From Acidimicrobiales bacterium (GTDB taxonomy: Bacteria > Actinomycetota > Acidimicrobiia > Acidimicrobiales > SZUA-35), in NCBI GenBank assembly GCA_013003535.1, contig JABDIY010000073.1, positions 1 to 35,057 of the forward strand: DNA of 35,057 bases, read 5' to 3'. The position numbers and the translations under genes are program-made. Shown here one piece after another: positions 24,554 through 27,686 of this stretch. Every line of letters begins with the position of its first letter. The first letter of the stretch is position 1. The notes beneath the pieces are model-generated. The model did not search any database, had not been told where the DNA came from, and worked only from the letters and a program-made list of their open reading frames with translations.

Positions 24554-25414
24554 ATGAATGAGGTCGAAAACGTCGTTGCGTTGGGTGGTGGACACGGCCT
24601 GGCGGCGGCACTCACCGCAGTCCGCACCTACGCCAGGAACGTGGATGGCGTTGTCTCGGTTGCCGACGACGGTGGTTCGAGTGGGCGGTTGCGTCGGGAG
24701 CTGGGGTTGCCCGCCCCGGGCGACATTCGCCGTTGTTTGTCGGCTCTGAGCGGGTCCCGTTCGATGCTGGCTCGTTCCCTGGAACATCGGTTCCAAGCCG
24801 GTCCGTTGCAGGGTCATGCGGTGGGCAATCTGATCATCGCCGGGCTCGCCGACGCGTCGGGTGACTTCATTGCCGCGATCGCGGAAATGGAGCGACTGGT
24901 GGACGCGCAAGGTCGACTCCATCCGGCCACCACCGGTGATGTCACTCTCATGGCCGATAGCGACGTTGGTGAGATCTCGGGCCAGGTGACGATCGAGCGC
25001 GCCACCGGGATCCGAAACCTTCGGTTCACCGAATCCACGGTCACAGCGAACCCGGCGGCCGTAGAGGCCATCCGGCGGGCCGACCAGGTGGTGTTGGGAC
25101 CGGGCTCGCTTTTCACCTCGGTTCTCGCCACTGTGATCGTCCCGGAGATCCACGCCGCTTTCGAGGAAGCGAGTGGCATGAAGATCTTCGTGGCGAATAT
25201 CGCTAATGATCGGGCCGAGGCAAGAGGATTCGGGCTGCTAGAGCATCTGGATGCTCTCGCCGCTCACGGAGTAGACCCCGATGTTGTGTTGGTAGATGCG
25301 TCCTATGTAGGTGCGGGATCCATTCCTCACGCGGTCACGGCACCCCTTCGAGGACCGGACAACTGGTCCCATGATCCGCTCGCCCTCGCCGCCGCTCTCT
25401 CTGCCCTCGGTTAG
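24554..25414 (+). CDS. yvcK: YvcK family protein (gluconeogenesis factor, CofD-like fold)
   Basis: A 286-residue protein of the YvcK/CofD-like family that binds UDP-sugars in Bacillus and Mycobacterium and affects carbon use and cell-wall synthesis. Key motifs are VVALGGGHGLAAAL (8-21), VSVADDGGSSGRLRRELG, PAPGDIRRCL, GHAVGNLIIAGL, and VLGPGSLFTSVLATVIVPEI. It is somewhat shorter than the usual 310-330 residues. The gene lies directly after rapZ, as in most Gram-positive genomes. The next gene should be whiA but is gap, 60 bases downstream. The ATG has GGAA a few bases upstream. Product identity is firm, whereas its exact regulatory role is inferred from relatives. Confidence 0.95.
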   Translation: MNEVENVVALGGGHGLAAALTAVRTYARNVDGVVSVADDGGSSGRLRRELGLPAPGDIRRCLSALSGSRSMLARSLEHRFQAGPLQGHAVGNLIIAGLADASGDFIAAIAEMERLVDAQGRLHPATTGDVTLMADSDVGEISGQVTIERATGIRNLRFTESTVTANPAAVEAIRRADQVVLGPGSLFTSVLATVIVPEIHAAFEEASGMKIFVANIANDRAEARGFGLLEHLDALAAHGVDPDVVLVDASYVGAGSIPHAVTAPLRGPDNWSHDPLALAAALSALG

Positions 25415-25461
25415 GTTTCGCCCAACTCAAATCTCACCTGGGTTGCGGCGGCGAAGGCCGC

Positions 25462-25467
25462 TATCCT
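25462..25467 (+). promoter_or_regulatory. -10 box for a leaderless gap transcript
   Basis: TATCCT ends seven bases before the gap ATG (25475), with only GCCGCGC between and no ribosome-binding sequence. TANNNT at this distance predicts transcription starting at the start codon. The 60-base gap after yvcK shows no good -35 box, so the call rests on the -10 box, its spacing and the lack of a Shine-Dalgarno. Confidence 0.4.
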
Positions 25468-25474
25468 GCCGCGC

Positions 25475-26485
25475 ATGAGCATTCGCGTAGGCATTAATGG
25501 TTTCGGGCGTATTGGACGCAACTTCTTCAGGGCGGCCAAAGCGTCCGGGGCAGACATCGACTTTGTCGCCGTCAATGACCTCGGATCGCTGGAGACCATG
25601 GCTCACCTCCTCAAGTACGACAGCGTGCTCGGGGTCCTGCCGCAGGAGATCACCGCAGTCGATGGTGGCATCTCGGTTGACGGTGACGTACTCAAAGTGA
25701 TGAGTGAGCGCAGTCCGGCTGACCTGCCGTGGGGAGATCTCGGCGTCGACGTTGTCATCGAGTCCACCGGAGTGTTCAACTCCCGAGAAAAGGCCGGTCT
25801 CCACTTGGACGGTGGCGCTCCTTTCGTGATCGTCTCCGCACCATGTTCGGGGGCCGACGAAACGTTCGTCTACGGCGTGAACCACGAAGACTTCGACCCC
25901 GAGAAACACAAGGTTGTCTCCAACGCATCTTGCACCACCAATTGCTTTGTACCCATGGTGAAGGTGCTGGATGACAATTTCGGTCTGGTGCACGGTCTCA
26001 TGACCACCATCCACGCCTATACCGGCGATCAGACCACCGTGGACACCCCACACAGTGACTTGCGCCGGGCCCGCGCCGCCGCCATCAACATCATCCCTAC
26101 CTCCACCGGCGCCGCTCGGGCCACCAGCCTGGTGATGCAGAGCATGAAAGGCAAGCTCGACGGGATCGCAATGCGGGTTCCCGTGCCAACCGGATCCATT
26201 ACAGACTTCACCGCAGTGTTGGAGAAGGAAGCGAGCGCCGACGAGATCAACGCCGCGTACAAGGCCGCTGCGGAAAGCGGGCCGATGGCGTCGGTACTGG
26301 AATACACCGAGGCACCGATCGTTTCATCCGACATCGTCACATCGCCAGCGTCGTGCACCATCGACGCCGGCCTCACCACCACCATCGGAACACTGGTGAA
26401 GGTGGCCGGTTGGTATGACAACGAGTGGGGTTACTCCAACCGCTTGGTGGATATGGCCTTGATAGTCGGCGGCGCCAACAAGTAA
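25475..26485 (+). CDS. gap: glyceraldehyde-3-phosphate dehydrogenase, type I
   Basis: A 336-residue tetrameric glycolytic enzyme that oxidises glyceraldehyde 3-phosphate to 1,3-bisphosphoglycerate. The N-terminus has the NAD-binding VGINGFGRIGRN, and AVNDL carries the acidic residue that favours NAD over NADP. The catalytic cysteine is Cys153 in SNASCTTNC, the base lies in TTIHAYTGDQ, and the phosphate-binding stretch is PTSTGAARA. WYDNEWGYSNR closes the sequence. It begins the glycolytic run gap-pgk-tpiA. There is no Shine-Dalgarno, and a -10-like TATCCT sits directly upstream, so it may be read from a leaderless mRNA. A long perfect hairpin lies between it and pgk. Confidence 0.98.
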   Translation: MSIRVGINGFGRIGRNFFRAAKASGADIDFVAVNDLGSLETMAHLLKYDSVLGVLPQEITAVDGGISVDGDVLKVMSERSPADLPWGDLGVDVVIESTGVFNSREKAGLHLDGGAPFVIVSAPCSGADETFVYGVNHEDFDPEKHKVVSNASCTTNCFVPMVKVLDDNFGLVHGLMTTIHAYTGDQTTVDTPHSDLRRARAAAINIIPTSTGAARATSLVMQSMKGKLDGIAMRVPVPTGSITDFTAVLEKEASADEINAAYKAAAESGPMASVLEYTEAPIVSSDIVTSPASCTIDAGLTTTIGTLVKVAGWYDNEWGYSNRLVDMALIVGGANK

Positions 26486-26495
26486 CGCAGCGCTA

Positions 26496-26547
26496 GGGAC
26501 AGGCTCCAACGTTGCGGCCACAGCGGCGCAACGTTGGAGCCTGTCCC
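26496..26547. repeat. perfect 21-bp inverted repeat between gap and pgk
   Basis: Arms 26496-26516 (starting GGGACAGGCTCC) and 26527-26547 (ending GGAGCCTGTCCC) are exact reverse complements around a 10-base loop. Each arm also holds the self-complementary octamer CAACGTTG. No T-tract follows, and the pgk Shine-Dalgarno (GAGGAG) starts about 12 bases later, so a simple rho-independent terminator is unlikely. It could be an mRNA-stabilising or processing stem that sets gap against pgk levels, or one copy of a dispersed palindromic element. No second copy was seen in this window. Confidence 0.85.
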
Positions 26548-26570
26548 GGTTGTTGCGATGAGGAGTCAAC

Positions 26571-27686
26571 ATGATCAACGGTGTCCCTGAACTGGAAGAT
26601 CTCGGTGATGTCACCGGCAAGAACGTTTTAGTCCGGGTGGACTTCAACGTCCCGGTGCGCAACGGTGAGATCACCGACGATCTTCGCATTCGCGCCGCTC
26701 TACCAACGTTGAAATGGTTGGTCGATCGAGGCGCCAATGTCACGGCGTGCTCACACCTCGGTCGGCCGAAGGGAACACCGAACCCGGAATTTTCGATGGA
26801 ACCTGTGAGGCAACGACTGGCCACTTTGGCGCCCGGAGTCAAGTTGCTCGAGAACCTCCGGTTCAACCCGGGGGAGACCAGCAACGACCCGGCGTTCGTG
26901 GCTGAACTGGTGGCGGGCCAGGACCTGTATGTGAACGACGCATTTGGGGCATCACACCGGGAACACGCCAGCATCGTGGGCCCACCCCAGACACTCCCTT
27001 CTGCAGCCGGTCGGCTCTTAGCCAAGGAGGTTGACGTTCTCCTCGGCATCCGTAACCAACCCCGCCGCCCGTTTGTGGGAATCATGGGCGGTGCCAAGAT
27101 CAGCGACAAACTGAGCGTTGTGGAAGCCTTACTTGGGGTTGTTGATCAGCTCATCATCGGTGGTGGTATGGCCTACACGTTCTTGGCCTCTCAGGGGCAC
27201 AGCGTCGGAGACTCGCTCCTTGAAGAAGACATGATCGAGACCTGCGGTGCGCTGCTGAAGAGCGGGAGCTCCCTGGTGCTGCCCCACGACACCACCGTCC
27301 TCGTTGGTGGGAAACTCTTTGATCCCGATGCTGGGGGAGAGGTGCGGCAGATGGGTGTGGATATCCCGCCAGGAGCGATGGGTGTCGACATCGGTCCGGG
27401 CTCGGCGGCTGCCTTCACCGACATTATCAGTGAGGCCGGAACCGTTCTGTGGAACGGGCCGATGGGTGTGTTTGAGGATCCGCGCTTCGAGGCCGGCACT
27501 CGCACCGTGGCTGAAGCGATGGCAGAGAGCAAAGCCTTCACCGTTGTCGGCGGCGGTGACTCTGCTGCTGCGGCAAAGCAGTTCGGCTTCGACGGGGACA
27601 TGGACCATGTCTCCACCGGTGGCGGCGCATCACTGGAACTCATCGAACAAGGCGACCTCCCCGGTTTAGAGGCGCTCCGAGACTGA
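26571..27686 (+). CDS. pgk: phosphoglycerate kinase
   Basis: A 371-residue monomeric kinase that makes ATP from 1,3-bisphosphoglycerate. Present are VRVDFNVPV (about 21-29), the substrate-binding SHLGRPKG, LLENLRFNPGE, the hinge/nucleotide region MGGAKISDK, NGPMGVFE and the glycine-rich VGGGDSAAAAKQFG. It is shorter than the usual 390-400 residues, with compact loops in both domains but no missing motif. GAGGAG stands a few bases before the ATG. It lies 85 bases after gap, across the large hairpin, and about 150 bases before tpiA. Identity is certain. Confidence 0.98.
   Translation: MINGVPELEDLGDVTGKNVLVRVDFNVPVRNGEITDDLRIRAALPTLKWLVDRGANVTACSHLGRPKGTPNPEFSMEPVRQRLATLAPGVKLLENLRFNPGETSNDPAFVAELVAGQDLYVNDAFGASHREHASIVGPPQTLPSAAGRLLAKEVDVLLGIRNQPRRPFVGIMGGAKISDKLSVVEALLGVVDQLIIGGGMAYTFLASQGHSVGDSLLEEDMIETCGALLKSGSSLVLPHDTTVLVGGKLFDPDAGGEVRQMGVDIPPGAMGVDIGPGSAAAFTDIISEAGTVLWNGPMGVFEDPRFEAGTRTVAEAMAESKAFTVVGGGDSAAAAKQFGFDGDMDHVSTGGGASLELIEQGDLPGLEALRD

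Follow-up and report, generated by a model that had tools for sequence, protein, structure and literature searches.

Closest described systems

Genes of Y1 tyrosine transposases flanked by inverted repeats have been described as TIRtrons, or TIRYT, and in some genomes the repeats are also dispersed as singles and dimers (Di Nocera et al. 2013, PMC3733652, in its accessible part). Some of these TIRs contain self-complementary tracts, and the accessible text of the same report holds no rule relating tags to a core of the sort set out below. The authors of a later survey equated most TIRYTs with subclass 2.1 of TnpAY1; according to the part of it that is available, searches around subclass 2.1 genes, both automatic and manual, turned up no REP-like sequence (Quentin et al. 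2018, PMC6006769). In related systems the REPs are cut by their own enzymes, as stated in excerpts of two papers (PMC8266576, PMC3116915).

The locus considered here is a palindrome between the genes gap and pgk in a stretch of 35,057 nucleotides (the window) from an Acidimicrobiales bacterium. Very probably this hairpin is a non-autonomous miniature mobile element, an inverted TIR doublet of a Y1/HUH transposase of the RAYT/TIRYT kind that is encoded in trans (G000:C209:1353-2186, G000 being the source genome, a draft of 221 contigs, and G001 its sister species). As read from the sequences, the element has copies, a flanked transposase gene, a genome-specific tag, a fixed pairing register and no positional conservation. 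Since TIRtrons with dispersed TIR dimers are published (PMC3733652, accessible part), the kind of element is already known.

The palindrome between gap and pgk

The palindrome occupies positions 26496..26547, is assigned to neither strand, and consists of the core GGGACAGGCTCC in two inverted copies, each with its inner tag (AACGTTGCG), around a 10-nt loop. Its arms (26496-26516 and 26527-26547) measure 21 nt each, are 100% complementary and stand 10 nt apart. Each half would belong to a unit composed of an outer tag, GGGACAGGCNCC and an inner tag, the two tags being complementary. The core of the left unit, GGGACAGGCTCC, lies at 26496..26507 on the plus strand and that of the right unit, with the same GGGACAGGCTCC, at 26536..26547 on the minus strand. 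The left outer tag region, CGCAGCGCTA (26486..26495, plus strand), is located immediately 3' of the gap stop codon; the right one, GGTTGTTGCG (26548..26557, plus strand), follows the same register as the left tag.

The upstream neighbour gap (glyceraldehyde-3-phosphate dehydrogenase, 25475..26485, plus strand) matches TIGR01534 above cut-off. The downstream neighbour pgk (phosphoglycerate kinase, 26571..27686, plus strand) has as its sole NCBIfam match a PGK/TIM fusion model (NF010569), strong at E 5e-131 and yet below that model's cut-off. The two genes are separated by a spacer of 85 nt in which the stem begins 10 nt past the gap stop, and the likely ribosome-binding stretch of pgk, GAGGAG by reading, remains outside the stem. 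Further upstream, a yvcK-like gene (24554-25414) is followed directly by gap, and the plus strand of window positions 24554-25475 has no ORF of at least 90 aa between them that could be whiA, a gene which we take to be expected at that place.

Among the perfect stems of the window with a loop of 3-40 nt this one, at 21 bp, is the longest; in 15 dinucleotide shuffles the longest stem was 9 to 12 bp per shuffle. The sequence-only reading had described a perfect stem of 21 bp, with a loop of 10 bases and no T-tract, too long and too perfect to be due to chance, and is borne out on each of these points. A chance palindrome, or an artefact of assembly through a fold-back join, carries next to no probability. 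The draft state of the genome would leave room for the latter, but the stem is well over the longest one obtained by shuffling, the ten loop bases are not an inverted copy, and the core is shared by independent hairpins with other inner arms, in this genome and in others.

So strong and GC-rich an intergenic hairpin could also act as an intrinsic terminator or attenuator between gap and pgk, a function that is very improbable here. No T-run follows either arm on either strand, and a consensus scan of both strands, whose rule allows loops of 3-8 nt and leaves the 10-nt loop of the stem outside it, gave no terminator-like site at the stem. The region as a whole contained 3 terminator-like sites against 2.9 +/- 1.5 in shuffles. 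Termination at this point would moreover sever pgk and tpi from a row of genes that is otherwise unbroken.

The gap-pgk spacer in related genomes

The RNA of the palindrome is predicted to fold with -59.4 kcal/mol, versus -31.0 +/- 3.4 in 200 shuffles, and its pairing extends into the flanks. A fold of such stability, 10 nt past the gap stop in an apparent operon, is compatible with a host regulatory RNA hairpin that would block 3'-5' exonucleases after cutting, or be a target of RNase III, and would in this way give the gap mRNA greater stability than pgk; a mobile element may have been the source from which it was recruited. REP elements in general are known for such effects on mRNA (PMC6006769, accessible part), and the gapR-gap-pgk-tpiA-pgm-eno operon appears among the co-precipitated RNAs in the available text of an RNase III study of S. 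aureus (PMC3386247).

Regulation by the host is nevertheless unlikely to be what the hairpin is there for, and it was set aside as the main interpretation on account of the spacers at the other gap loci, all of which are different. The gap search covered 20 genomes, and 17 gap loci were read, paralogous and partial matches being left out. None of the 16 loci besides that of the window has the same spacer. Both sequence and length are different, the latter ranging from a few nt to about 0.3 kb (G003, 9 nt; G004, about 0.13 kb; G001, about 0.32 kb), and the hairpin was not found at the same place in any of these 16. Among 99 relatives the hairpin pattern was present only in G000 (2) and G001 (3), the reversed-pattern control giving 0 in all rows. 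Conservation thus lends no support to the gap-pgk mRNA-stability element that the sequence-only reading had considered. Against host regulation speak also a copy of the same build downstream of another gene, and the tag and core rules, which track the transposase and not gap or pgk (both described below).

The spacer of G001 (L193:1826-2170) is filled by a palindromic repeat of another family, for which there were 118 match rows in G001, 53 in G002, 19 in G004 and 0 in both G000 and G003, where a palindromic copy may give two rows. Since the G001 spacer is itself a repeat, the gap-pgk spacer has taken in different repeats in the sister species.

Copies in the source genome and in its sister species

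A search with 151 bases around the stem retrieved a second perfect hairpin at G000:C73:19096-19150, directly 3' of the stop codon of an rpoC-like ORF (rpoC by reading). Its outer 12 bases, GGGACAGGCTCC, are shared with the window and its inner arm is different, both sides having changed together. This 12-mer is found in C73 (twice), C102 (twice) and C130, and GGGACAGGCACC lies beside the transposase gene of C209. The exact core GGGACAGGCWCC has 8 occurrences, namely 2 in each hairpin (window and C73), 2 on C102, 1 on C130 and 1 on C209, the match on C130 being without a tag. The copies of G000 are therefore dispersed and partly dimeric, comprising 2 doublets, 2 single units on C102 and 2 units at the transposase gene, and the copy number is low. 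With respect to the GGGGWSAS motif, the window copy agrees at 7/8 positions (AGGGACAG, CGGGACAG; A or C for the first G) and the C73 copy matches in full. The single units of C102 (L034:1160-1225 and 1826-1890) are 666 bases apart and have near-identical flanks, resembling a duplicated segment around a small ORF region.

Sites in which the core is joined to GTTRC distinguish the two sister species. All 7 sites of G000 read GTTGC and all 20 of G001 read GTTAC; elsewhere there was 1 such site in G005 and 0 in 7 other genomes, and a reversed GTTRC control gave 0 in nine genomes and 1 in G007. The tag, GTTGC in G000 and GTTAC in G001, is placed both inside and outside the core, and many of the G001 sites are single units of the form GTAACGnnGGAGCCTGTCCCnnnnGTTAC.

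The other copies sought in the genome were thus found, as the C73 doublet and the single units. The sequence-only reading had named an absence of other copies, along with a lack of conservation in close relatives, as counting against its proposals: copies exist, and there is no conservation by position. The mobile or repeated palindrome that it had offered as an option is supported by the genome copies, by the flanked transposase gene and by the version that G001 has of its own.

A clean empty site was recovered for neither doublet. That of C73 was sought by means of the upstream gene, which was matched in 4/5 genomes; the downstream sequence was too divergent to place the borders, and no simple alignment was obtained for the rpoC-like downstream regions of G001, G002 and G004. 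Excision, insertion or polymorphism was not seen in these comparisons of sequences.

The transposase encoded on C209

Pfam Y1_Tnp (PF01797) has one match in G000, on C209, at 29.6 bits (cut-off 23). The gene, at 1353-2186, encodes a Y1/HUH transposase of 277 aa and is flanked on both sides by the unit, as GCAACAAAAGGGACAGGCACC upstream and GGGGCCTGTCCCTATTGTTGC downstream; its flanking inverted repeat scored 17, versus a maximum of 10 in 20 shuffles. Against the model REP_Tyr_transpos (NF047646) the protein reached 55.6 bits, below the cut-off of 80. It contains HFH and a downstream Y..NP stretch, presumably the motif of such an enzyme. The C-terminal part shows similarity to the helix-turn-helix domains found in sigma region 4 and, weakly, to those of DnaA: Sigma70_r4_2 was matched at 24.3 bits in G000 (cut-off 25.7) and at 32.3 bits in G001, and the matches of this part to HTH_23 and Bac_DnaA_C were below cut-off.

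The closest transposases are those of G000 (100% identity) and G001 (62%), followed by others at 38-47%. The two genomes are also, among the 99 relatives, the sole bearers of the hairpin pattern. In G001 the transposase gene is likewise flanked by the unit, and since the ORFs around it resemble those around the G000 gene (translations compared by reading), the gene appears to have been inherited in place.

The core beyond the order

The core recurs as hairpins in many phyla. At least 123 hairpins in at least 119 stretches were obtained in a scan of genome contigs outside the order, and the taxa among the matches listed comprise Coriobacteria/Atopobiaceae, Lachnospiraceae, Bacillaceae, Bacteroidales, Deltaproteobacteria, Armatimonadetes, Nitrospirae, Planctomycetes, Acidobacteria and others. 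A choice of 46 loci was made among the matches listed, and the genomes of 45 of them were searched for Y1_Tnp. The domain was present in 41/45 hairpin genomes (absent in 4/45), versus 24/99 relatives and 5/14 control genomes, a difference to be taken as association only because the taxa compared differ. In further stretches around Y1 genes of the hairpin genomes, an exact core pair surrounded the gene in 11/40.

Among 55 transposase-like ORFs the exact core was present on both sides in 15. A tree was built with 52 of them, leaving out L232 (156 aa) and both L257 ORFs, which equal the G124:C5 genes of L234. On this tree the label 'flanked by GGGACAGG' required 13 changes, versus a mean of 13.2 when shuffled. 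A single transposase clade owning the GGGACAGG core is not supported, and with the label so scattered the core is not the badge of one clade. For 40/52 genes there was a flanking inverted repeat that outscored all of 20 shuffles. At L239, L236, L273, L277 and L281 the inverted repeats beside the transposase gene have cores that differ from GGGACAGG (GGGGACTGTCCCC, GGGGACAGACCCC, GGGGACGGTTC, GGGGGACGCTCG).

Pairing of the outer and inner tags

The complementarity of the tags was evaluated on 240 of the 246 units that form the 123 hairpins, 6 having been dropped for N or short flanks. In the best register the base two before the core is opposite the first base after the core, with a mean Watson-Crick fraction of 0.489 over 11 positions; other registers gave 0.24-0.35, and a null in which outer and inner tags were taken from different loci gave 0.326 +/- 0.009 (maximum 0.348 in 500). 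After thinning by the inner 8-mer to 147 units the value was 0.459, versus 0.308 +/- 0.011, and at least 6/10 pairs were formed in 60 of these units, 12.2 being expected. A shared run of at least 5 was present in a fraction of 0.50 of the 240 units, versus 0.17 on mispairing (maximum 0.23 in 200). In 77 units the shared run reached 6 or more, and 64 of these used one register.

The two units of the window obey the register of the family. The left outer tag forms 7 Watson-Crick pairs and one G-T with the inner tag; being a degenerate GCAAC (GCAGC), it does not match the core + GTTRC pattern. On the right, outer and inner tags form 6 consecutive pairs (CGCAAC/GTTGCG). Repeats flanking transposase genes were examined in 30 of the 40 above-shuffle genes, those whose repeats contain GGGAC. 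A stem of at least 5 bp was found in 14/30, where mispairing would lead one to expect 2.1 (maximum 7.2 in 2000), and 12 of these 14 stems share one register. A 5-bp stem was missing in 16/30. The pairing in register extends to transposase-side repeats with other cores (GGGGACGGTTC, GGGGACTGTCCCC and others).

With the outer and inner tags complementary in one register, a unit can fold as a small single-stranded hairpin. When single-strand DNA folding was computed, the tag stem was clear for two units from other genomes and was obtained with weak z for the two units of the window (-0.73 and -1.33); it was not obtained for the transposase-flanking units of G000 and G001 (two tried).

The outer tags might alternatively reflect the choice of target, the inner palindrome having been inserted beside a preferred sequence such as GTTGC. 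In IS200/IS605 relatives the target is a tetranucleotide to the left of the element, which is recognised through a matching guide within it (PMC6006769, accessible part), and no empty site was recovered that would exclude such an origin. It is quite improbable all the same, as the tag is on both sides, inverted, at both ends of the transposase gene and at most doublets, and inner and outer tags change in step between the two sister species.

Discussion

Taken as a mobile doublet, the gap-pgk hairpin shares with the TIRtrons/TIRYT a flanked Y1 gene, dispersed singles and dimers and possibly the GGGGWSAS-like motif (compared with the accessible part of their description). It differs from them in its few copies, in a window copy that departs from GGGGWSAS at one position, and in complementary genome-specific tags around a constant core. 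The enzyme is like TnpAY1 subclass 2.1 in combining a Y1/HUH core with a C-terminal helix-turn-helix extension, a likeness drawn from the available description (PMC6006769); unlike what is reported for that subclass, some of the units sampled here do form hairpins of the tag-core-tag type. With REPINs and their RAYT the system has in common the inverted doublet, a single-copy transposase in trans and single units as possible remnants (Bertels and Rainey 2011, PMC3116915, accessible part), as well as two alternative folds, a long hairpin or a clover. In contrast to REPINs, each unit has its conserved part in the loop and a variable stem, and copies are far fewer (7 tag-core sites in G000 and 20 in G001). 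The GTAG/GTGG foot of the GTAG REPIN is absent from the flanks of both window units. The subterminal hairpins at IS200/IS605 ends, processed by a related Y1 enzyme (PMC6006769, accessible part), are also similar, whereas the gap-pgk element lacks a gene of its own. In the accessible portions of the open-licence literature, the matches listed for the core string looked like primers and other unrelated sequences, the string in PMC4853749 being a PCR primer.

The doublet would be mobile in the following manner. A single-stranded unit would fold into a small hairpin exposing the conserved core as its loop, and the doublet could adopt either two such hairpins or one long hairpin, the palindrome first noticed. 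The C209 enzyme or a recent ancestor probably recognises the units as single-stranded hairpins, and would bind and cleave them on replication forks or other single-stranded DNA. This action is proposed on the grounds that the REPs of relatives are cut by their enzymes (PMC8266576 and PMC3116915, in the parts cited above). The enzyme would have inserted the doublet just 3' of the gap stop codon, a site of little harm. Once transcribed, the long hairpin may, as a bystander effect, change the way in which the gap-pgk mRNA decays in the 3'-5' direction or is cut by RNase III; a putative role in mRNA stability, if real, would be secondary.

A more general arrangement is possible and is advanced tentatively. 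TIRYT-type terminal repeats may often be single-strand hairpins turned inside out with respect to ordinary REPs, with a loop (GGGGAC plus about six or seven bases) kept across phyla and a stem that is a drifting transposase-specific tag, with compensating changes at four places of the doublet. From the loop the enzyme would recognise the class, and from the stem its own repeats; the hairpin between gap and pgk would be one such non-autonomous doublet. As far as open-licence papers show, this rule of a constant loop and a drifting stem may be new.

A striking palindrome in a row of central metabolic genes is in this way explained as a small mobile element, which warns against reading such a structure as a conserved regulator. 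How these transposases recognise their ends is a question left by the 2013 and 2018 surveys, in their accessible parts, and the GTTGC/GTTAC pair of sister species provides a natural test case for end recognition by a poorly studied class of single-strand transposases.
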